From: Spirochaeta africana DSM 8902
Lineage (GTDB): Bacteria > Spirochaetota > Spirochaetia > DSM-27196 > DSM-8902
Direction: 5' to 3'
Length of the DNA stretch: 64,000 nt
Assembly: GCF_000242595.2 (NCBI RefSeq)
Contig: NC_017098.1
Span: 1,860,001-1,924,000 of the forward strand
In this document: piece by piece, positions 30,451-45,191 of the stretch
How the letters are laid out: each line of letters starts with the position of its first letter
How positions within the stretch are numbered: position 1 is the stretch's first letter
Made by a program: the position numbers and the translations under genes
Notes under the pieces: generated by a model
Seen by the model: only the letters and a program-made list of their open reading frames with translations
Databases searched by the model: none
Told to the model about the DNA's origin: nothing

Positions 30451-31455
30451 TTAGATGTCATCGTCCTCGTCAGTGTGCAGGCGACGCTCCTCGATGAAGC
30501 GAAGAACCTGAATCTCGCCCAGTCGGCTGATCTCTGCCTGCCGGCGCTCGGCTTCACGCTCGCTGAGAATACCCCAGATCTGCTCATCCTCGAAATCACG
30601 CTCCAGATCCAGTACAGCACGGTCGAAGGTCAGGGTAACATCCTTGATATAGGTGATAAAGTCCCCGCCTACGGCATTGGCATCGCGGTAGATGCGGAAG
30701 CCGACCAGCTTCTGGTACGGCGTCAGATTCGGGTACAACGGCAGTCGGCGCAGGTCGCGGTCACGGACGTCGGACAGGTAGTTCGGGTTTCGCCAGGTCA
30801 TTGTCCGCCATCCGTCAAAGTTCAGGTAGCCCATGAAGTAATCACGGGTGCGGCCAGTCTGATCCTCCATAACCACGCTGAATCCGTGCGGAAAGTTCAG
30901 CCCGTGGATGTTCACCTCGATCTCTTTCAGGACACCGACGTTTTTTACGACACCAAGATTGTCGAATTTGCGTCCCCGTCCCACTTCGTCCTGGGGAACA
31001 ATCAGATTACCGTCGGCATCCAGCTCCTCGGCATCCATGTAGGCAGGAATGCTGAAGGGAGGACGAATCTCGGCATAAGCATTATGATTCATGGATGGGA
31101 AATGTACCCGAACACCCATTACGGTTTCGTTCTCGTACCGGGAGGCACCTTCGCGTACCGGGGCTTCTCGGACAAACGAGTTGGCCATGGTGCGGGGGTT
31201 CCGCGAAGAAGACGACAGAACGACTTCCCAGTTCTCGATGGCAAGCGAACTCTTCATCAGCGCAAGCTCATCCTCGGTGAAGCTGGCCCCTGCTACATCG
31301 CTGTAGTCAAGCAGCGTAGCTTCGTGATCAGTCGGCTGATCTGCCGGCCAGTTCGGTACAAGTTCTGCAAAATCGATGAGAACCTGTCGTTCAGCGAAAG
31401 CTGTCGTGCTTACCAGCACGAGCAGAATAGTGATGAGAGTGAAAATGCGTTTCAT
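30451..31455 (-). CDS. flaA: Flagellar filament outer layer (sheath) protein FlaA
   Basis: FlaA forms the sheath around the FlaB core of the periplasmic flagella. The 334-residue protein has a signal peptide (MKRIFTLITILLVLVSTTAFA) and the family's conserved central segments, such as VKNVGVLKEIEVNIHGLNFPHGFSV and YFMGYLNFDGWRTMTWRNPNYL; the C-terminal tail is charged and helical (residues 290-334). A consensus promoter, an AAAGGAG ribosome-binding site and a strong terminator surround it, all signs of high expression. It sits between the amidase/GerMN pair and cheA, as in Borrelia. Confidence 0.94.
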   Translation of the reverse strand: MKRIFTLITILLVLVSTTAFAERQVLIDFAELVPNWPADQPTDHEATLLDYSDVAGASFTEDELALMKSSLAIENWEVVLSSSSRNPRTMANSFVREAPVREGASRYENETVMGVRVHFPSMNHNAYAEIRPPFSIPAYMDAEELDADGNLIVPQDEVGRGRKFDNLGVVKNVGVLKEIEVNIHGLNFPHGFSVVMEDQTGRTRDYFMGYLNFDGWRTMTWRNPNYLSDVRDRDLRRLPLYPNLTPYQKLVGFRIYRDANAVGGDFITYIKDVTLTFDRAVLDLERDFEDEQIWGILSEREAERRQAEISRLGEIQVLRFIEERRLHTDEDDDI

Positions 31456-31585: not shown

Positions 31586-32089
31586 CTAATTCAGAACAAA
31601 CGGATCTGCAAATGGAATTTGTCCGTTTACCGTAATTATTATCTCTTTGACAAATGGAAAGTTATAGTTGATGCTCCGCTTTAATGCCTGTTCGGCATCG
31701 GCAAAGCCGAGATTGGTGTCCTGCTGCTTCAACAACCGCTCGGCATCAAAATCCATATAGAGCACACCGCGACGCAACAGCAGCGACCGCAGCTCGGTGC
31801 CGCGCGAGAATACCCGCCCCTTCTCGACCGACATCGGTCCCAGCAGGATCTCTTCGACAACCCGGGAAACCCGCTGTTCCCGTGTGCCACTGTGGGGAAC
31901 GGCTCTGGGCTCGCCGGAAATACCGGTCCTGACCGCTCCGGGAAAGAACAGCACCAGCTCCTGATAGGCAGGACGAAACGCTGCCCACACTCCGATGCTG
32001 ATAATGATCAACAGCAGCAGCAAGGCCACAGAGGGCTGCACCAGGCGGCGATTGATCTCTGGCAGATTAATAGCTTTTGATAAACTCAT
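31586..32089 (-). CDS. GerMN domain membrane-anchored protein
   Basis: The 167-residue product has a short cytoplasmic N terminus, one membrane helix (VALLLLLIIISIGVWAAF, about residues 21-38) and an external GerMN-type domain (about 45-165; VSRVVEEILLGP, LRSLLLRRGVLYMDFDAERLL, INYNFPFVKEIIITVNGQIP). GerMN domains occur in cell-wall-linked lipoproteins and germination proteins and are thought to bind or organise envelope components. It overlaps the amidase gene by 23 bases, so the two probably act together in peptidoglycan turnover around the periplasmic flagella. The same pair lies before flaA in Borrelia, as I recall it. Confidence 0.82.
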   Translation of the reverse strand: MSLSKAINLPEINRRLVQPSVALLLLLIIISIGVWAAFRPAYQELVLFFPGAVRTGISGEPRAVPHSGTREQRVSRVVEEILLGPMSVEKGRVFSRGTELRSLLLRRGVLYMDFDAERLLKQQDTNLGFADAEQALKRSINYNFPFVKEIIITVNGQIPFADPFVLN

Positions 32090-33137
32090 TCAGGCCATTA
32101 TAGATTCCCTCTGCAATCTCCTGCAAGTAGGCAGAATCCTGCAAACGACGGAATTCTTCGCTGTTGGTAAGAAAACCGATCTCCACCAGAACCGATGGCA
32201 TGTGAGCCCCGCGCACCACGGCAAAGGTTTCCTGTTTCAGCCCTCTGTTGGGAACCCCGCTGCCAAGCTGGCCTTCCAGTCCGGACAGGATGTGCCGACC
32301 CAGCAGAATACTCTGAATCGTCAGCTCCTCCTCCATCATGGTATTGAGGATCGGGACAATCTCCTCTGAACCGCGGTAATCTGCCTCGGTAATCAGTGTT
32401 CGGCGGAATTCCGGCGGCAGATACCATACCTCAAAGCCCTGTGCGCGGGTATTGATACTGGCATTGGCGTGGATAGAAACAAACAGGGTTGAATCATTGG
32501 CGCCGGCGGCAACATCATTTGCCATCTCATAGCGGTCTATCAGCTCGATATATCGATCATCCTCACGGGACATGACGATATCAATTTCGGGATTCCGCTG
32601 ACGCAGCAGCCGGGCCAGCCGTAGTGATACATCGAGAACCACATCCTTTTCCCGCAGCTCCATCGGGGTACCGTCGACGGTATGACGTCCGATAGCACCG
32701 GGGTCCTTGCCGCCATGCCCCGGATCTATGAACACCGTCGAGATACGGCCCGGCGGCTGCTCGGCCGGGGGCGGAAACAGGCGCTCAATGATCTCTCGTG
32801 TTTCCGGGGTCACCAGTAGACCGCCCTGACTGTCCCAGGAGACAGGGTCAATCGGTATGGTGCGCTGGTAGTTGACCGCAGCAAACGGCACCCCCGGGAA
32901 GAACCCCAGATAGGTATCCCCTCGAACCAGGGTACCCCGGGAACTGACGGCGTCCCACTGCAGCTGCAGATCCAGTTCCTCGGCCACCTGCAGCAGAGGC
33001 ACGGAACCGGCGTGCAGCAATTGAGGCAGCAGCAGCACAGCTGCACAGCACAACAGTAGACGCGCTGCAGTCGTAGAAAAACCGGTATGGCTATGTACAG
33101 ATCTATTTGCGGTCTTCACTTTTTGACCTATCGGCAT
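32067..33137 (-). CDS. N-acetylmuramoyl-L-alanine amidase (Amidase_3)
   Basis: This exported zinc amidase cuts the bond between muramic acid and the peptide stem. All ligands are visible: His in VFIDPGHGGKDPGA, Glu in ELREKDVVLDVSLRL, His in FVSIHANAS and the catalytic Glu in VLVEIGFLTN. The N-terminal region (about residues 50-130) is an uncharacterised domain after a signal sequence (ARLLLCCAAVLLLPQLLHAG). I give ATG 33135-33137, overlapping the ATP-grasp gene; the GTG at 33117-33119 has a better-placed AGG and may be the true start. It is likely involved in daughter-cell separation or wall remodelling. Confidence 0.9.
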   Translation of the reverse strand: MPIGQKVKTANRSVHSHTGFSTTAARLLLCCAAVLLLPQLLHAGSVPLLQVAEELDLQLQWDAVSSRGTLVRGDTYLGFFPGVPFAAVNYQRTIPIDPVSWDSQGGLLVTPETREIIERLFPPPAEQPPGRISTVFIDPGHGGKDPGAIGRHTVDGTPMELREKDVVLDVSLRLARLLRQRNPEIDIVMSREDDRYIELIDRYEMANDVAAGANDSTLFVSIHANASINTRAQGFEVWYLPPEFRRTLITEADYRGSEEIVPILNTMMEEELTIQSILLGRHILSGLEGQLGSGVPNRGLKQETFAVVRGAHMPSVLVEIGFLTNSEEFRRLQDSAYLQEIAEGIYNGLNEFIKSY

Positions 33138-34869
33138 TTTCCAAAACCTGCTGAAATGATTCGACCAATGCCAGCACCCCGCGCACCCCGCCTCGCGACA
33201 GTGACCGCAGCAGGGCAATTCGGGAGGCGTCGCCGCACCGGCAGGGCTCAGTTTCCCGATGCAGAACCACCAGCCCGCGCTGCTGGAGAACCTGCACGTG
33301 GTCATGTACACGGCGTCCCAGCCAGTCAAGACCGGCATCAGCTGCCAGGTCCTGAGCATACAGCGGCAGCGGCATTGAAATCCCGGAAAAATCATCCAAC
33401 TGACACTCACGATACTGCGGAAGCTGAAACAACAGCGGCGCCTGGGGTTCAGGTTCCAGCAGAAAAGCAACAGTATCGGGGTTGCCCGGCTCCAGCTCTA
33501 TCTGCAGCAGCTCGACCGCCTCACGGGCTGCCGTGGCAGCGGCACCAGCTGGTGATGCAGTTTCGGCTTCGTGGGCGACATTCCTGTCCGCGGGCGCATC
33601 ACTGCTCGTGTGAATGTGCATGCAGTTGTCGTCAACCGCGATTACATTCGCGCATTTCCCCAGATTGTCACACAAACTGCTTACCGCAGAGCCTGGACGG
33701 GCAGCAAGCCAGATATGCGCCACCCCGGGTACCGTCGCAGCCTGCTCGATACCACTGACATGGCGCACCACGCCAGGCGGGACGATGCAGGCGCGCTCTG
33801 CAACCGGCCGTGACCAGCGGGGCTTTGCCAGCAAACGCTGCACAGCAGGCGTAAGCTCAAGACCGACACAGCTGCAGATCATGGGAACAATCGCCGATAT
33901 CCCGCTGTGCAGCGGATAGCTCCAGCCCGACATGAACCCGCCGGACAGCCGCGCGGCAAGCTCCCCGACCACCGCCCGGGAGCCATCCCAGAACACATCG
34001 CCCTTTATGGCGCCCCAGGTAATCCCCAAGGCGCGGCTGGCATCCTCGAGCCCCTGCATTAACTGCTGTCGGCGTTTATCGTCAATACCTGCCGGAAAGC
34101 TGTGCCCAAGCTCCACCCGAAACGGATCAAAGAAGATGTGCCGCGCTGCTATGCCAAATTCAACCAGCCTGCCCTGCATCCAGACAGCGTCGATACTGTA
34201 CTCCGGCCCCGGAATAAATCCTTCAATGATACAGCGGCCGCTGTGACTGTTGGCGCGGGCATTCCCGAGCGCATGATGCAGCTCTCCGGTAGTGCGCACT
34301 ATCTGCACCCCACGGGCTCCCATGTTGTCTACCGGTTTGACAACTGCCGGGAAAATACGCCATCCGGCGGCAGGATCGGCCCCGTCGTCTGCCTGCGCAG
34401 CCTCAACCACCATGAATTCCGGGGTCGGCAGCCCGGCTTTCTGCAGCGCACTGCGCATACAGTCCTTGTAGCGGGCATTCTCGGCGGTTGCGGCCGGCAG
34501 CCCGGGCAGACCGAGTCTGCGGGCTGCATGGGCAACACTGGTAGAAAAATCGGTACCCACCGTACAGACCCCGTGAAAAATCGTCCCGGCTGCAGCGGCG
34601 GTATTGGCAATAGCTTCGGCATCCTTCAGATCAACATGCAGAAACGCATCGGCCACCGCTGCCCCCGGGGCAGTCAGACTGCCGTCGACTACCGTGACCT
34701 TGATCCCCAGAACCTGTGCAATATTGATCAGCGGCAGCTGCATGATTCCCCCGCCGAGGACCAGCAGGTGTTTATGCTGCAGCTGCGGCTGCAGGCAGTC
34801 GATGACTGCCGGATCAAGGGCCGGGGGATGCATGTAGGCAGGAAACGGCGAATGGGTCACGGTACTCAT
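33103..34869 (-). CDS. ATP-grasp domain protein of the spiro-SPASM cluster
   Basis: The 588-residue product begins with a Rossmann-like preATP domain (LLVLGGGIMQLPLINIAQVLGIKVTVVDGS, residues 34-63) and an ATP-grasp core (about 130-330; AVVKPVDNMGARGVQIV binding loop, CIIEGFIPGPEYSIDAV, and the metal site near VVGELAARLSGGFMSG). Such enzymes couple a carboxylate to an amine or similar. Residues about 430-588 are a second, weakly defined region with Cys-rich and helical parts that I cannot assign. The gene overlaps its upstream neighbour by four bases, so it belongs to the cluster; the substrate is unknown. Confidence 0.8.
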   Translation of the reverse strand: MSTVTHSPFPAYMHPPALDPAVIDCLQPQLQHKHLLVLGGGIMQLPLINIAQVLGIKVTVVDGSLTAPGAAVADAFLHVDLKDAEAIANTAAAAGTIFHGVCTVGTDFSTSVAHAARRLGLPGLPAATAENARYKDCMRSALQKAGLPTPEFMVVEAAQADDGADPAAGWRIFPAVVKPVDNMGARGVQIVRTTGELHHALGNARANSHSGRCIIEGFIPGPEYSIDAVWMQGRLVEFGIAARHIFFDPFRVELGHSFPAGIDDKRRQQLMQGLEDASRALGITWGAIKGDVFWDGSRAVVGELAARLSGGFMSGWSYPLHSGISAIVPMICSCVGLELTPAVQRLLAKPRWSRPVAERACIVPPGVVRHVSGIEQAATVPGVAHIWLAARPGSAVSSLCDNLGKCANVIAVDDNCMHIHTSSDAPADRNVAHEAETASPAGAAATAAREAVELLQIELEPGNPDTVAFLLEPEPQAPLLFQLPQYRECQLDDFSGISMPLPLYAQDLAADAGLDWLGRRVHDHVQVLQQRGLVVLHRETEPCRCGDASRIALLRSLSRGGVRGVLALVESFQQVLENADRSKSEDRK

Positions 34870-36587
34870 ACCAGTGGTTCACCGGTCTTGCGAAGATACA
34901 GCTCGAAGGTATCACCAAGCCCGACCCACCGACTGATCCCGCTGGCCAGCCAGCGGCCAAACCGCCCTGCACCGAGCAGCGGAAAACGCTCGGGATGATG
35001 CCCGGTAATCACGATTTTCTCGACCTGGAAACCATACCGTCCAAACAGGGTCTGCATGTGTCGCGGTTCGAATATCGTAACGTGATCCTCCGGTCCATTC
35101 AGCAGGAATCGGCGAAACCCGGTTCGTGCTGACACCCCGGCACCGTTCGGTGTTGACAGCGCAAATATGCCACCCGGCCGCAGCAGATGACTGATACGAC
35201 GCAGCAGGGCATCGAGGCGATCAATATGCTCGATTACGTACCACAGGGTGACCGCCGAAAATTGTTCGCAGCCGAACAGCTGCTGAAAATCAAGCTCCAG
35301 CGGATCCCCAACAGCGGCCGGGAGATTCAGGTGCTGCTGCACCCAGGCAACCGCATCGGCAGAGATGTCGATCCCGCAGGGCTGCCAGCCTTCATCGCTG
35401 GCAGCCTGAAGGAATGGCCCCAGGGCGCAGCCAATATCCAGCAGACTGCCCTTCTCGGGATACAGCCGGTTCAGTACCCGCAAACGCTCCTGCCCCATCG
35501 CCTTGATCTTGTCGAAATCCTCGGCGTAGGTCCGGCCATACTGGCGGCGATATTCCTCGCCGAAATAATCCTGATCGTAACTGATGCTGATCGGGGTGTA
35601 CCGCTGTTTGTATACCAGTCTGGTCGACCGACAGCGAAAAAATGTCTCGTGCTCGGTCCGTTCAATCCCCGGGTTGCAGCGCGCCCCGCCGGCCGGTGAG
35701 CCCAGGATTGCTGGCGTCTGCAGCTGCAGCAAAAACCGTGACAGTGAGCGTTCACGCCCCACCGAGTACCCGGTAAGCCGCTCCAGATAGCGTTCAGGCT
35801 GTGTCAGCATCTGCCGCAAACGCCGCAATGCAGGGCGTCGTACACCAAGCGAAAAGAATCCGGCAGTGTCGGCCAGGCGACGATGATAGCGACTGGGATG
35901 CACGCCGGCAACCGCACATCCGGCAGCAGCTGCCTCGAACATGGCCAAACCGAACTGCGTGATCACCAGATCATAGTCGGCAAACAGCTCCTTGGCGTTC
36001 TGTACCCCGCGTACACAGGCTACCCCCTCGGGAAACTCCTGGGCATGGAATGCCCCGCCGATCAGGGCGGTAACCCGGTCCGGGCGAACCCCGATACGAC
36101 GAACCAGCAGATGTGCCATGCGAGAACTGAGGCCCAGCGAATCCTCCCCGCCAAAGACCAGGAGTATCCGTTCCAGCTCCTGCGGGCTGTCCTGGCGAAC
36201 ACGTACCGGCTGGGCCAGAAAGCCAGGTTCTGCAAGATTCGGCGGGGTGCTCGGACGCAAATGCGGCAGGATATCTATCAGATAGTCACAATAGCGTCGT
36301 CCACTGCCGCGAGCGTCCAGACCCACAACAGGTCCATACTCGGCAAAGCGCCGTACCTCTGCTGCACCAAGCGATCTGGTATCGATCACCACCAGATCAT
36401 AGCGCTCCCCCGGGGTGGTCACCCTGAGGTGTTCCGGCACCAGCCGGGCGCTGGCAGATCCGATATGCGGCAGATACAGCCCGCTGCCGGGCGACCCGAT
36501 CGCGGTAACCAGCTCAAGACAGCGTTTGATATGTCCAGTACCGTGGCCGGGCCGAACCTCCGGCACACAGAGTATGTGTTTCTTCAT
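34866..36587 (-). CDS. Fusion of PseG/SpsG-like glycosyl-transfer domain and SAM methyltransferase
   Basis: The product (573 residues) has two domains. Residues 1-310 resemble PseG/SpsG-type nucleotide-sugar proteins (CVPEVRPGHGTGHIKRCLELV at the N terminus, ILLVFGGEDSLGLSSRMAHLL, and DLVITQFGLAMFEAAAAGCAVAGV, the usual sugar-nucleotide motif). Residues about 330-573 are a class I methyltransferase (LLDIGCALGPFLQAASDEG, AVTLWYVIEHI, LRPGGIFALSTPNG). I chose the ATG that overlaps the upstream stop by four bases (ATGA); a longer reading adds 13 residues before the core. The pairing suggests that a sugar or glycan is both activated or transferred and methylated. Confidence 0.8.
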   Translation of the reverse strand: MKKHILCVPEVRPGHGTGHIKRCLELVTAIGSPGSGLYLPHIGSASARLVPEHLRVTTPGERYDLVVIDTRSLGAAEVRRFAEYGPVVGLDARGSGRRYCDYLIDILPHLRPSTPPNLAEPGFLAQPVRVRQDSPQELERILLVFGGEDSLGLSSRMAHLLVRRIGVRPDRVTALIGGAFHAQEFPEGVACVRGVQNAKELFADYDLVITQFGLAMFEAAAAGCAVAGVHPSRYHRRLADTAGFFSLGVRRPALRRLRQMLTQPERYLERLTGYSVGRERSLSRFLLQLQTPAILGSPAGGARCNPGIERTEHETFFRCRSTRLVYKQRYTPISISYDQDYFGEEYRRQYGRTYAEDFDKIKAMGQERLRVLNRLYPEKGSLLDIGCALGPFLQAASDEGWQPCGIDISADAVAWVQQHLNLPAAVGDPLELDFQQLFGCEQFSAVTLWYVIEHIDRLDALLRRISHLLRPGGIFALSTPNGAGVSARTGFRRFLLNGPEDHVTIFEPRHMQTLFGRYGFQVEKIVITGHHPERFPLLGAGRFGRWLASGISRWVGLGDTFELYLRKTGEPLV

Positions 36588-37270
36588 GATACCTTCAATC
36601 GTGCATGAGGATTTCGGGAGCACCACTGTATCACGTCAGTGATGGGAATGGGAGACCCTGAGTATAATTCCGCAAACAGGCGGCGCATGTACGCGAGGTC
36701 TTCCGGTGTATCCACCGTCACCCGGGCACTGCTGCGCCAGCTGTCCGGAGCAGGCTGCAGCGCCAGCCGGAACAGTTCGGGGTTGCCATAGATATATGCC
36801 GTAACATGCTCCCGCTCGCCCGAACTGGCGGCATCCCGATATGCCCGCGCCAGGGCATCGGCGCGCAGGACTTCCACTGCTGTACCGTAGGGAGGGTGCA
36901 GCAGCCCGGCATAATCAGCTGCAGTCTGCCGGGCCAGCTGCAGCGATGCATCGGCAATCTCCGGAGACACCAGTGGATTGTCACCGGTTGCTCGAACCAC
37001 CGTATCCAGGCCGAGCTGCTCGGCCGCTCGATGGTAACGAGCCAGTACATCGGTCGGATGCCCGGCGATTACCTGGAAACCGCACCGGCCGCACAGCGGC
37101 TGGAGTTCCGGCAGGCTCGCTTCATCGGTAACCACCGCGTACACATCGGCCGGTACCGCCAACAGATTCTCCATAGCATGCTGCAAAAGCGGCTTGCCGG
37201 CGATTGGCAGCAGAATCTTGCGCGGCAGGCGCTGAGAATCAATCCTGGCTTGTAGCAAGATCCCGGTCAT
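36584..37270 (-). CDS. SpsF-like cytidylyltransferase
   Basis: This 228-residue protein has the nucleotidyltransferase signature QARIDSQRLPRKILLPIAGKPLLQHAMENL at the N terminus, TDEASLPELQPL, and VRATGDNPLVSPEI with the metal-binding Asp. It resembles SpsF of Bacillus and the CMP-sugar synthetases that activate sialic-like sugars. It probably makes a CMP-linked or similar activated sugar for the neighbouring transferases. It overlaps the genes on both sides by four bases (37267-37270 and 36584-36587). Confidence 0.84.
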   Translation of the reverse strand: MTGILLQARIDSQRLPRKILLPIAGKPLLQHAMENLLAVPADVYAVVTDEASLPELQPLCGRCGFQVIAGHPTDVLARYHRAAEQLGLDTVVRATGDNPLVSPEIADASLQLARQTAADYAGLLHPPYGTAVEVLRADALARAYRDAASSGEREHVTAYIYGNPELFRLALQPAPDSWRSSARVTVDTPEDLAYMRRLFAELYSGSPIPITDVIQWCSRNPHARLKVS

Positions 37271-38193
37271 TGGTCCTCCCAGAGTTCGAGCAACCGCCGC
37301 GCATCCTGGGTATAGCGGAACCGATTGGACTCTACCCAGGTCTTGATCCGGCGATATTCGCGCAGTGTATCAAAAAACCCGAACGATGTTTTGCACAGCA
37401 GCCGCAGCGGCAGGAAGCGCGGCAGATACCCGCTATCCCCGGAAAAGCGCACCGCTATGTTTTTCAGAAAAAAACGCAGATAGTCAATGGTAGGGGTGGT
37501 GTCCTCCGGGATGCTGGTCATCGTGCTGGATACCCGGAACGAGATACTGCTGGTAATGCTGGAGCCCCACAGATATGCCCGCATGCCAAAGTCCATCTTT
37601 TGCCAGTAGGGTGAGGTCATATCGCCGTCGTATCCGCCAAGCTCCAGGAACCGGCGGGAATGGTAGATACCGACATAGTCATGCGGATAGATCGTCGCCT
37701 GCCCGTCCCGGGAGGGCACCGCGGGTATCAGTCGGATAGTACGCTGAAAAAATGCCGGCATGAAAATACTGGGGATGACCTCTGCGCGTTCGCTGCGAAA
37801 CAGCGGCACGGCACAGACCTGGTCACCCTGAACTATCGACTGCAGCACGCGATCGCTGATGGACTGGATCTGGATAGTGTTCCAGACAACCAGCACATGG
37901 GATGAGGAAGATTCCTGGACACCGAGGTTTATCATCTGACCTGGATTCAGCTCCCGTTGCAGCAGCAGAAACTTGACCCGGGGAAACCGGTTGGCCAGCT
38001 GTTCCACATCGTAACTGGACGCCTTGGGCTCTACCGCAATGATCTCTCGCGGCTTGAGCAGCTCAAGATCACTGAACAGCTGCACCCGGTTAAAGCGACC
38101 GCCACGGTGTAAAACCAGCACCGACAGCCCGGGGGTTGCCGGCAATCGACGGTTCAGACGCGGACCACCGACAACCGTAAAATCCCCGGTCAT
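37267..38193 (-). CDS. Glycosyltransferase family 2-like protein
   Basis: The product (308 residues from ATG 38191-38193) has the outline of a GT-A glycosyltransferase: LSVLVLHRGGRFNRVQLFSDLELL, then LNPGQMINLGVQESSSSHVLVVWNTIQIQ, where the last part stands at the place of the usual DxD motif but lacks it, and ELGGYDGDMTSPYWQKMDFGMRAYLWG, which fits the acceptor loop GG.DE...ED. Loss of the DxD could mean altered metal use. Two starts are possible; 38193 follows the spiro-SPASM stop, while 38223 overlaps it. It ends on the SpsF-like gene with a four-base overlap. Confidence 0.72.
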   Translation of the reverse strand: MTGDFTVVGGPRLNRRLPATPGLSVLVLHRGGRFNRVQLFSDLELLKPREIIAVEPKASSYDVEQLANRFPRVKFLLLQRELNPGQMINLGVQESSSSHVLVVWNTIQIQSISDRVLQSIVQGDQVCAVPLFRSERAEVIPSIFMPAFFQRTIRLIPAVPSRDGQATIYPHDYVGIYHSRRFLELGGYDGDMTSPYWQKMDFGMRAYLWGSSITSSISFRVSSTMTSIPEDTTPTIDYLRFFLKNIAVRFSGDSGYLPRFLPLRLLCKTSFGFFDTLREYRRIKTWVESNRFRYTQDARRLLELWEDQ

Positions 38194-38197
38194 ACTC

Positions 38198-39736
38198 TCA
38201 GAAGGTGAAGGTGTAATACTCATCGCACTTTGCACATTGGCCCGGGTAATCCTGTTGCAGATGCAGATGATACATCTCTGCATGCTGCTCCCACATCTCC
38301 GCCAGTGGCCGGTCACCGATACGACCGAACACGTGGGGAGCGAACAGATCCACATGACACATAGACATAGAGGCGTCCGGCAGCAGGGTTATCTCGCGTT
38401 TGAGACGCCAGCATGGCAGACGCCGGATCGGTGAGGTATCGGCAGCCTGCTGCGGCGGCAGGCGACCGGCAAATGTATGATATTTCTGGACTATAATCCG
38501 TTCTGTATGCTGCTTCCAGTGCCGGTAAAAGTCGAGTAGATGATGCTCGTTCTGCTGCATTCGCATCGCCTGCACGTACACTGCCTCGGGGAAGGCAGCC
38601 TCCAGCGCGGCATACCCGGCCAGCGCAGCCTCAAGACTGCCATCCGGTCGTATCTGCGCATACAAGGCGGGCTCGTTGGCGTCCAGAAATACTATCCAGG
38701 TAAGGAGTTGGCGTTTATTCTGCTGTTCAAGCTGTCCAGCCAAGGTCTGCAGCATGGCGGTATCCCAGCCAATCCCGTCGGTCTCCACCACAACCCGCAA
38801 CCCGAGGTCGACACAGCCGCGAATAACCTCGGCTACCGCCGGATACTCGGCAGGTTCGCCGACATGGGACAGCACGACGGTACCGTCACCGGCAAGTTCG
38901 GCGAACTCGCGAACACTCTGCAGCACCAGAGCCGGGTCGGCAGCCCCTGACAGCAGGGGAGCATCAGGCCCTGATACAACCTGCGGCATGTAGCATGCTG
39001 GGCGCGAGGCCGCACCATGCAGGATCCAGTTGAGCGATGCCGGCAGGGTGCGAAACAGCTGCTGCTCAGTATCCAGCACCTCGCAAAGCCGGGCCGCTGT
39101 TGGCGGCGTTATGTCACCGGTTTGATACAGTCTCCCGGCAATCCGTGAACACAACAGGTGATTGCGTCGCGTATCACCGCGAAGCTCAAGACGCAGCAGA
39201 CGATAATCGGTCGGCGAAATACGGGTTTCAATATCAAAGGCGTTTATGTCTCGCTCCACCAGTGCGAACAGACTACGGAATCCGGCATCGGTGGCCAGAC
39301 CCTGCAGCAGCGGCAGCGCATCACAGGAAATAATTTCGGGAGTACAGCCGGCAGGATAGCCGTCACAGAAACTGTAATGAGCAAAATACTGCTGATGCTG
39401 CTGCAGCAGCAGCTGGGACTCGTCTATCAGCTGAAACGGTGCGTCGCCGCGCAGCAGGACGATTGAACCGTGCCGATCGAACCCCGCGCTGCACGAGGTC
39501 AGGGTTTCTACCAGATCATGTTCGTTCCAGTCGCGGCGATACTCATGCGATGCCGGGCGGTCCCCGGGCGTTGTGTCGTCGACAAGGGTCACTACCGAGG
39601 ACGCACCGACAGCCTGTCGCAGCATATCGGCGCTGCGAAAGACCAGGCTCATGGGGGACTGCCCATCGACAATCGGTCTGTCGGCATACCGGGACATGCG
39701 GGTTGCATCAATACAGATTATTACTGGCTTTTCCAT
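38198..39736 (-). CDS. Spiro-SPASM protein (radical-SAM-like, SPASM domain)
   Basis: This 512-residue protein fits the spiro-SPASM family known only from spirochaetes. An N-terminal region (about 1-190) resembles a cytidylyltransferase but with a broken signature (RMSRYADRPIVDGQSPMSLVF). The central region (about 230-430) has the strand pattern of a radical SAM barrel, but where CxxxCxxC should stand there is only PACYMPQVVSGPD. The C-terminal SPASM part holds four cysteines (Cys442, Cys460, Cys501, Cys504) suited to an auxiliary iron-sulfur cluster. The ATG at 39734-39736 has an AGGA site six bases upstream. It is the first gene of the glycan cluster; its biochemical role is unknown. Confidence 0.82.
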   Translation of the reverse strand: MEKPVIICIDATRMSRYADRPIVDGQSPMSLVFRSADMLRQAVGASSVVTLVDDTTPGDRPASHEYRRDWNEHDLVETLTSCSAGFDRHGSIVLLRGDAPFQLIDESQLLLQQHQQYFAHYSFCDGYPAGCTPEIISCDALPLLQGLATDAGFRSLFALVERDINAFDIETRISPTDYRLLRLELRGDTRRNHLLCSRIAGRLYQTGDITPPTAARLCEVLDTEQQLFRTLPASLNWILHGAASRPACYMPQVVSGPDAPLLSGAADPALVLQSVREFAELAGDGTVVLSHVGEPAEYPAVAEVIRGCVDLGLRVVVETDGIGWDTAMLQTLAGQLEQQNKRQLLTWIVFLDANEPALYAQIRPDGSLEAALAGYAALEAAFPEAVYVQAMRMQQNEHHLLDFYRHWKQHTERIIVQKYHTFAGRLPPQQAADTSPIRRLPCWRLKREITLLPDASMSMCHVDLFAPHVFGRIGDRPLAEMWEQHAEMYHLHLQQDYPGQCAKCDEYYTFTF

Positions 39737-43955: not shown

Positions 43956-45191
43956 TCAGGCCAGCAGATGCGCCGCACGCCTGTCATTTCCAGGCACCCG
44001 TTTGGTAAGTACTTGCCCGGTAACAGAATCCACTACTGGCGGGTTTTCGTACTGCTGCTGCCAGATGGCGCTGATCCAGTCCGGACACCCGCGATGTACC
44101 GCATGACTGTGCAAAAATCGTCTGGTATGTCTCAGTTTCAGCATCCGTTGCGCTACTTGCGACTGACCGAACACGGCAGCCTGGGCATGCGTTGCGTCTC
44201 CTTCCGTCCTACAGCGACCGGTAATCCGCTCCGGCTTGACAAAGGTATGCGCTCCAAGCTCAATGGTCACCCGCTGCATAGCCATATTCACCTCCCGCGC
44301 GAATCGCACTGTCTCACGCACATGATCTGCCATATCCTTGCGAATCTCCCGATCGATATAGTTCACCGGAAAGAGTGGATTCTGCCGGCTCCGTACAGCC
44401 CGGGACGATACGGTGCAATGGGTAAATCCGCCGGCATGCATCGCCTCACGAATCCAGGGAACCTTCTGTAGTGCCCTGGGATATGCGGTGTGTTGGTCGG
44501 TCCACAGCTTCCAGGGGGACGCAGGATTCGAGATGGGAATGCGGTTGTACAGGGCATCAAACACCTGGGCACATGAAGCTACCAGTGATCCCCGAGCAGG
44601 TTTCCAGTGTACATCGATCATATGACGAAAAACACGCTGGGCAGCAGTCATGCGACCTTTGCGTCGCAGCACTGAGCCGGTAAATCCATATACCGAAAGA
44701 CTTTCACACCCCACCAGGATGTTCAGGTGCAGCGGAAAATACTGAGACCGTACAAAAGATTCAAAACCATCAAAGGCGCAGTTCTCCCCAAGTGGATGGT
44801 CACGGCTTGCCTCCGCATAGAGTGCCAGGTAACTGCGCGCCAGTCGCTGGCACCGGTTCTTTACTAGGCGCCCGCTGGCCATGATTGCACGGCCAATCTG
44901 GCGCTGTCCTGAACTAGCTATCAGCATTGATTCGATACGATCATACTTGATCACTCGGTGCACCCAGTACTGCATCGAGAATGACTGGGTAGAAAAGGTT
45001 TTCCCGCATGCCTTACACCGAAATCTCTGTACCGTACCGTGGGCTTGGGCATAGTGGGTGCCGAACTTGATGTACCATCTATTGTTGTGCTGCTCTCCAG
45101 GGTGATGAAAAGTACAAGCAGGGTTGGTGCAGAATTCGGGGCTGCTTGTCTCCTCGGTTTCTGCCGATGCGGATACGACAAGGTTTTCCAT
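43956..45191 (-). CDS. Transposase with N-terminal zinc-ribbon domain
   Basis: The 411-residue protein begins with a Cys/His region (CTNPACTFHH, then FRCKACGKTFS), typical of InsA/IS1595-like zinc-binding transposases. A DDE-like core follows: Asp in CAFDGFESFV, Asp in LWTDQHTAYPRA and a Glu/Lys-rich helix (DREIRKDMADHVRETVRFARE) that could hold the third acidic residue. It looks intact, with no frameshift. Its ribosome-binding site AGGAGG lies in a 9-base-pair hairpin just upstream, which should limit translation. The IS family is uncertain. Confidence 0.82.
   Translation of the reverse strand: MENLVVSASAETEETSSPEFCTNPACTFHHPGEQHNNRWYIKFGTHYAQAHGTVQRFRCKACGKTFSTQSFSMQYWVHRVIKYDRIESMLIASSGQRQIGRAIMASGRLVKNRCQRLARSYLALYAEASRDHPLGENCAFDGFESFVRSQYFPLHLNILVGCESLSVYGFTGSVLRRKGRMTAAQRVFRHMIDVHWKPARGSLVASCAQVFDALYNRIPISNPASPWKLWTDQHTAYPRALQKVPWIREAMHAGGFTHCTVSSRAVRSRQNPLFPVNYIDREIRKDMADHVRETVRFAREVNMAMQRVTIELGAHTFVKPERITGRCRTEGDATHAQAAVFGQSQVAQRMLKLRHTRRFLHSHAVHRGCPDWISAIWQQQYENPPVVDSVTGQVLTKRVPGNDRRAAHLLA

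Follow-up and report, generated by a model that had tools for sequence, protein, structure and literature searches.

What product would a tight run of sugar-related genes, built around a spiro-SPASM protein, make in Spirochaeta africana? The window analysed here, a stretch of 64,000 nucleotides (G000:C1:1860001-1924000), comes from a closed genome of 3,285,855 bp. The five cluster genes are all on the minus strand and span 39736 to 33103. They are given below with three conserved neighbours, whose presence was counted over 43 spirochaete loci.

38198 to 39736, minus strand: spiro-SPASM protein, 512 aa (ATG 39736, stop 38198; TIGR04321 549 bits, cut-off 250; Pfam SPASM)
37267 to 38193, minus strand: GT-A-fold glycosyltransferase-like protein, 308 aa (ATG 38193; assigned from the predicted fold with Foldseek)
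36584 to 37270, minus strand: SpsF-like cytidylyltransferase, 228 aa (CTP_transf_3, 1.3e-27)
34866 to 36587, minus strand: PseG-like and class I methyltransferase domains in one protein (PseG, 1.6e-4; Methyltransf_23, 1.1e-25)
33103 to 34869, minus strand: ATP-grasp ligase of the L-amino-acid-ligase type, 588 aa (ATP-grasp_4, LAL_C2)
32067 to 33137, minus strand: N-acetylmuramoyl-L-alanine amidase, conserved neighbour (Amidase_3, 1.5e-47; 38 of 43 loci)
31586 to 32089, minus strand: GerMN-domain protein, conserved neighbour (Germane domain, 2.2e-7; 39 of 43 loci)
30451 to 31455, minus strand: flaA, periplasmic flagellar sheath protein, conserved neighbour (FlaA, 9.8e-77; 39 of 43 loci)

The original prediction, made from the letters of the window, described five head-to-tail genes in this order with tight spacing, and all five are present. 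A gap of 4 bases separates the spiro-SPASM and GT-A-like genes; overlaps of 4 bases are observed at the GT-A-like/SpsF-like junction, at the junction of the SpsF-like gene with the PseG-like/methyltransferase gene (if ATG 36587 is the start) and between the latter and the ATP-grasp gene. The boundary drawn at 33103 was too tight. The run goes on past 33103: the ATP-grasp and amidase genes (amidase best start, ATG 33137) share 35 bases, the amidase and GerMN genes share 23, and flaA begins 130 bases beyond the GerMN gene. Upstream of the spiro-SPASM gene sits xseA in divergent orientation. Beyond the xseA side of the cluster we note a transposase-like 411-aa open reading frame with a zinc-ribbon-like start (43956-45191, minus strand).

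Gene order was compared in 60 genome neighbourhoods and in 80 from named organisms, the latter all from spirochaetes. Named-organism loci with at least 9.5 kb of downstream sequence number 43, and all five families occur in the same order in 40 of them, in a sample drawn from the 80 closest relatives and therefore skewed towards the class; flaA is also present in 39. The five-gene arrangement is thus not due to chance, and the co-occurrence that the prediction proposed to look for elsewhere is found. A mobile or defence cluster was considered and rejected because the gene order is conserved across the class. Outside the class, a core of spiro-SPASM, SpsF and PseG is retained in many lineages, often without the rest. 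In family f16 (L049, L050, L090) spiro-SPASM occurs alone, with no adjacent glycosyltransferase, SpsF, PseG, methyltransferase or ATP-grasp gene. These reduced sets indicate that the glycosyltransferase, methyltransferase and ligase are not universal.

Motifs and family matches support the predicted roles of SpsF in sugar activation, of the methyltransferase in methylation and of the ATP-grasp protein in ligation. The SpsF-like protein has an intact catalytic motif, with QxRxxSxRLPxK, TxDNP, PxG..E and D183/D187 conserved at 85-100% among 47 homologues. KdsB (KDO cytidylyltransferase) was rejected as an identity for this gene, since the NCBIfam KdsB scores reach at most 53.7 bits against cut-offs of 155-281. 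SpsF, PseG-like and methyltransferase parts are fused as one polypeptide in Treponema-type genomes (L034:5358-8000, L035:11328-13913). The best NCBIfam name for this fusion, a weak one, is KDO cytidylyltransferase and is a likely source of misleading annotation. The catalytic K, E, D, R and N columns of the ATP-grasp protein are invariant in 12 homologues; its best PDB matches are 4dim and 3vot, the latter an L-amino acid ligase. The PseG-like domain carries GxGHxxR (95-97% conserved among 40 homologues) and matches TIGR03590 weakly (21 bits, cut-off 153). It had been taken for a transferase, which is not correct, as PseG-type proteins are UDP-sugar hydrolases. For the protein first called a GT2-like transferase, the GT-A fold is borne out by the predicted model (pLDDT 88.8), but there is no Pfam or NCBIfam match and the fold is nearest to GT27-type GalNAc-transferases (best Foldseek match, E 1e-11). 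This protein is conserved in 16 loci; a DxD at the usual place is not present in the S. africana sequence.

The distribution of the cluster was examined in 109 genomes of the class (at least 95% complete; 84 flagellin-positive, 25 flagellin-negative). Spiro-SPASM scores over the cut-off in all 67 flagellin-positive genomes outside f5, a flagellin-positive family of 17 genomes that is Borrelia-like in size (0.9-1.8 Mb), in none of the f5 genomes and in none of the 25 flagellin-negative ones. The flagellin-negative genomes belong to at least four lineages (f54, f57, f58 and genus g12 of f8). Unlike g12, its sister genus g132 in f8 is flagellated and has spiro-SPASM. In a phylum sample flagellin is found in 178 of 179 genomes, and the single negative is also without spiro-SPASM. 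The ATP-grasp gene is present in 66 of the 67 spiro-SPASM-positive genomes (the lone miss is at a contig end) and in 0 of the 42 others. Full-length NeuB/PseI (E < 1e-47) occurs in 67/67 positives, 0/17 f5 genomes and 4/25 flagellin-negative genomes, and Maf (PF01973) in 67/67 positives, usually in four copies, and 1/42 others. Fisher p values for the NeuB, Maf and ATP-grasp associations are 1e-25 to 1e-29 without correction for shared ancestry, and few independent events underlie the co-loss counts. The co-loss ties the cluster genes to flagella, not to a particular substrate. The cluster is probably part of the machinery that makes and activates an acidic nine-carbon flagellar sugar in nearly all flagellated spirochaetes except the Borrelia-like ones. 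The gene set is kept even in the 1.1-Mb T. pallidum-like genome and is absent from Borrelia-like genomes. A cell-surface or flagellar glycan had been proposed; the co-loss with flagellin and the co-occurrence with NeuB and Maf favour the flagellar half, and a different cell-surface product, though conceivable, need not be invoked.

Models for two steps of the CMP-pseudaminic acid route, PseG and the acetyltransferase PseH, reach their cut-offs in none of the 109 class genomes. Of the weak PseG matches, most are to the cluster gene itself or to frames the size of MurG. Weak GNAT matches that fall short of the PseH cut-off are frequent, and a divergent N-acetyltransferase may therefore be present. 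Given the PseH result, we call the pathway a variant, not a member, of the CMP-pseudaminic acid route. With no canonical PseG or PseH found anywhere in the class sample, the SpsF and PseG-like proteins of the cluster are the strongest candidates for the CMP-activation and UDP-hydrolysis steps. In S. africana, PseB-, PseC-, NeuB- and Maf/PseD-like genes are located away from the cluster. The PseB-PseC pair in L106 is below NCBIfam cut-offs (PseB, PF02719 9.5e-103 and TIGR03589 7.9e-46; PseC, TIGR03588 1.2e-108); PseC is a poorer marker than the others because related aminotransferases are common. The NeuB/PseI-like synthase (PF03102, 1.8e-64) carries a SAF domain, and the Maf copies match FlagModPseD weakly. 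Two Maf-like genes (PF01973) are adjacent in S. africana (L108:7780-11032). We also observed that the PseB-PseC pair is followed by a xanthine-dehydrogenase-like trio of Mo-binding, 2Fe-2S and FAD proteins (L106:7486-13637, corresponding to G000:C1:2508485-2514636). The trio follows in 21 of the 22 loci showing both PseB and PseC, and follows PseC overall in 22 of 23 class loci. The first-cluster cysteines of its 2Fe-2S subunit (CxxxxCGxC) are lost in S. africana and in the T. pallidum-like genome. The trio may supply an oxidised acyl precursor, which we offer only as a lead.

A nonulosonic acid is the most probable sugar, a point that the original prediction missed. Its statement that no described pathway uses this set was too strong, because a variant of the CMP-pseudaminic/legionaminic acid plus Maf route accommodates these genes. 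FlaB proteins of T. denticola carry a 450.2-Da glycan required for filament assembly (PMC9481697), and such a route could make this product; in Leptospira, putative glycans lie between FlaB and sheath proteins (PMC9481697, PMC13144727). Our literature search found no paper assigning this gene set to the spirochaete flagellin glycan. The T. denticola FlaB glycan is reportedly a pseudaminic-type sugar bearing one N-acetyl group and one 2-methoxy-4,5,6-trihydroxyhexanoyl amide, and this structure computes to 450.185 Da. With a single methyl ether and a single long acyl group in amide linkage, it would suit one methyltransferase and one ligase, which is suggestive, not proof.

From the families, motifs, gene order, co-occurrence and co-loss observed here, we think it likely that a pseudaminic-like, nonulosonic-acid glycosylation pathway for flagellin has its spirochaete-specific half in this cluster. 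We infer every substrate, the sequence of steps and what spiro-SPASM and the GT-A-like protein do. UDP-GlcNAc would first be turned into a 4-amino sugar by PseB- and PseC-like enzymes encoded elsewhere. The missing PseH step would fall to the ATP-grasp ligase, which would attach a polyhydroxy acid at the 4-amino position; the methyltransferase domain would O-methylate that acid, giving the methyl ether. The PseG domain would remove UDP, the unlinked NeuB-type synthase would form the nine-carbon sugar and SpsF would produce the CMP-sugar; Maf enzymes would transfer this to Ser/Thr of FlaB ahead of export. Spiro-SPASM and the GT-A-like protein would assist in preparing or handling an acyl or sugar precursor, the S. 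africana spiro-SPASM serving as an iron-sulphur scaffold without radical chemistry. Counting against this explanation are the separate loci of NeuB and Maf in S. africana, the position of the ATP-grasp gene outside the cluster in genomes of the T. denticola-like and T. pallidum-like kind, the weak PseG match, the reduced gene sets outside the class and the frequent weak GNAT matches. The proposed pathway is of a kind already known and its parts are new; it provides a concrete candidate gene set for the spirochaete flagellin glycan and an apparent route without PseH.

The exact role of spiro-SPASM is the least certain part of the proposal. The family named in the original prediction is confirmed, but the S. 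africana copy is without the radical-SAM cluster motif, which had been missed. The protein comprises a cytidylyltransferase-like domain (residues ~1-225), a radical-SAM barrel (~228-430) without CxxxCxxC and a SPASM domain with Cys442, 460, 501 and 504. In the predicted model (pLDDT 92.9) the barrel fold is present; the barrel and SPASM part matches BtrN (VIA Z 22.8, 2.7 Å, 233 residues) and the N-terminal domain a Leptospira cytidylyltransferase, 6oew (VIA Z 21.3). Across 141 homologues the N-terminal domain is without the RxxSxRLPxK nucleotide-binding loop (positions R10 and K14 are unconserved, Y or a gap in most) and keeps D93, P95 and G125. By sequence and model, spiro-SPASM joins an apparently inactive cytidylyltransferase to a radical SAM/SPASM protein resembling BtrN. 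The catalytic CxxxCxxC is missing from 57 of the 141 homologues, among them the S. africana protein. Its loss is scattered over the tree, with 16 changes by parsimony, 20 losses if the motif was never regained and 12 after weak branches were collapsed. The four SPASM cysteines are kept in 139-140 of the 141 homologues, including 56-57 of the 57 motif-less ones, which also keep barrel residues (G-E-P 82-86%, E318 98%, K418 96%). This retention indicates that the protein is still needed, with the radical chemistry presumably gone.

We suggest tentatively, as a possibility and not as a firm expectation, that an ancestral radical-SAM enzyme acting on the flagellin-glycan sugar was converted 12-20 times to a non-radical Fe-S protein still needed by the pathway. 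The conversions would include the S. africana, T. pallidum-like and T. denticola-like genomes, in the first two of which the 2Fe-2S subunit of the trio beside PseB-PseC has undergone a comparable cysteine loss. If this is true, the glycans of species with and without the motif would differ by one oxidation or deoxygenation step. Spiro-SPASM is a test case of a radical-SAM enzyme repeatedly stripped of its catalytic cluster yet retained. Within the same pathway, it could instead remain catalytic without CxxxCxxC, through the SPASM cluster or other ligands, as the conserved G-E-P motif and other barrel residues of motif-less homologues might suggest. We regard this as unlikely, since the CxxxCxxC cysteines have been replaced by unrelated residues many times over and known radical-SAM chemistry requires the three-cysteine cluster. 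A literature search under the name spiro-SPASM and via T. pallidum locus tags returned nothing on the protein; TPASS_0285 is given in one paper as a SPASM iron-sulphur protein of unknown role.

The GT-A fold near polypeptide GalNAc-transferases, together with two cytidylyltransferase-like domains within one cluster, could also mean that the cluster makes a second, separate activated sugar that extends the flagellin nonulosonic acid or takes its place and is transferred by the GT-A-like protein. This seems rather improbable, because the S. africana protein is without DxD at the usual place, the cytidylyltransferase domain of spiro-SPASM is without the basic nucleotide-binding loop, and there is no alternative PseG candidate for the nonulosonic acid route. 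Very doubtful is the idea that the glycan belongs to some other part of the envelope (lipid, peptidoglycan or FlaA sheath), the correlation with flagellin arising as non-flagellated spirochaetes also changed their envelope: the amidase and GerMN genes do adjoin the cluster and the flagellin-negative genomes are whole lineages, different in many ways, but the cluster is missing in at least four such lineages, one within f8, Maf, a family of flagellin-sugar transferases, is lost together with it, and flaA is in the same gene run.

The preferred reading, a flagellin nonulosonic-acid pathway, can be set beside known systems. With the CMP-pseudaminic acid and Maf route of Campylobacter, Helicobacter and Aeromonas it shares PseB-, PseC-, PseG-, PseI/NeuB-, cytidylyltransferase- and Maf-like parts and the tie to flagellin. 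It differs in that the spirochaetes have no PseH or PseG at cut-off, use an SpsF-type enzyme instead of PseF, add the ATP-grasp, methyltransferase, spiro-SPASM and glycosyltransferase proteins and spread the genes over several loci. In B. subtilis, a nonulosonic acid pathway is made up of spsC, D, E, F and G; SpsG is assigned to biosynthesis and SpsF to transfer (PMC7439481). The SpsC/E/F/G-type enzymes that make and activate the nonulosonic acid, there legionaminic acid, are shared (PMC7439481), whereas the sps system serves the spore crust, not flagella, and has no radical-SAM-like protein; the spirochaete pathway for its part has no acetyltransferase placed. The T. denticola FlaB glycan is flagellin-linked and its mass is measured, whereas the S. 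africana pathway is proposed from gene content. BtrN and other radical SAM/SPASM or Twitch enzymes share with spiro-SPASM the barrel and auxiliary cluster fold; the S. africana protein differs in being without CxxxCxxC and in carrying an extra cytidylyltransferase-like domain.
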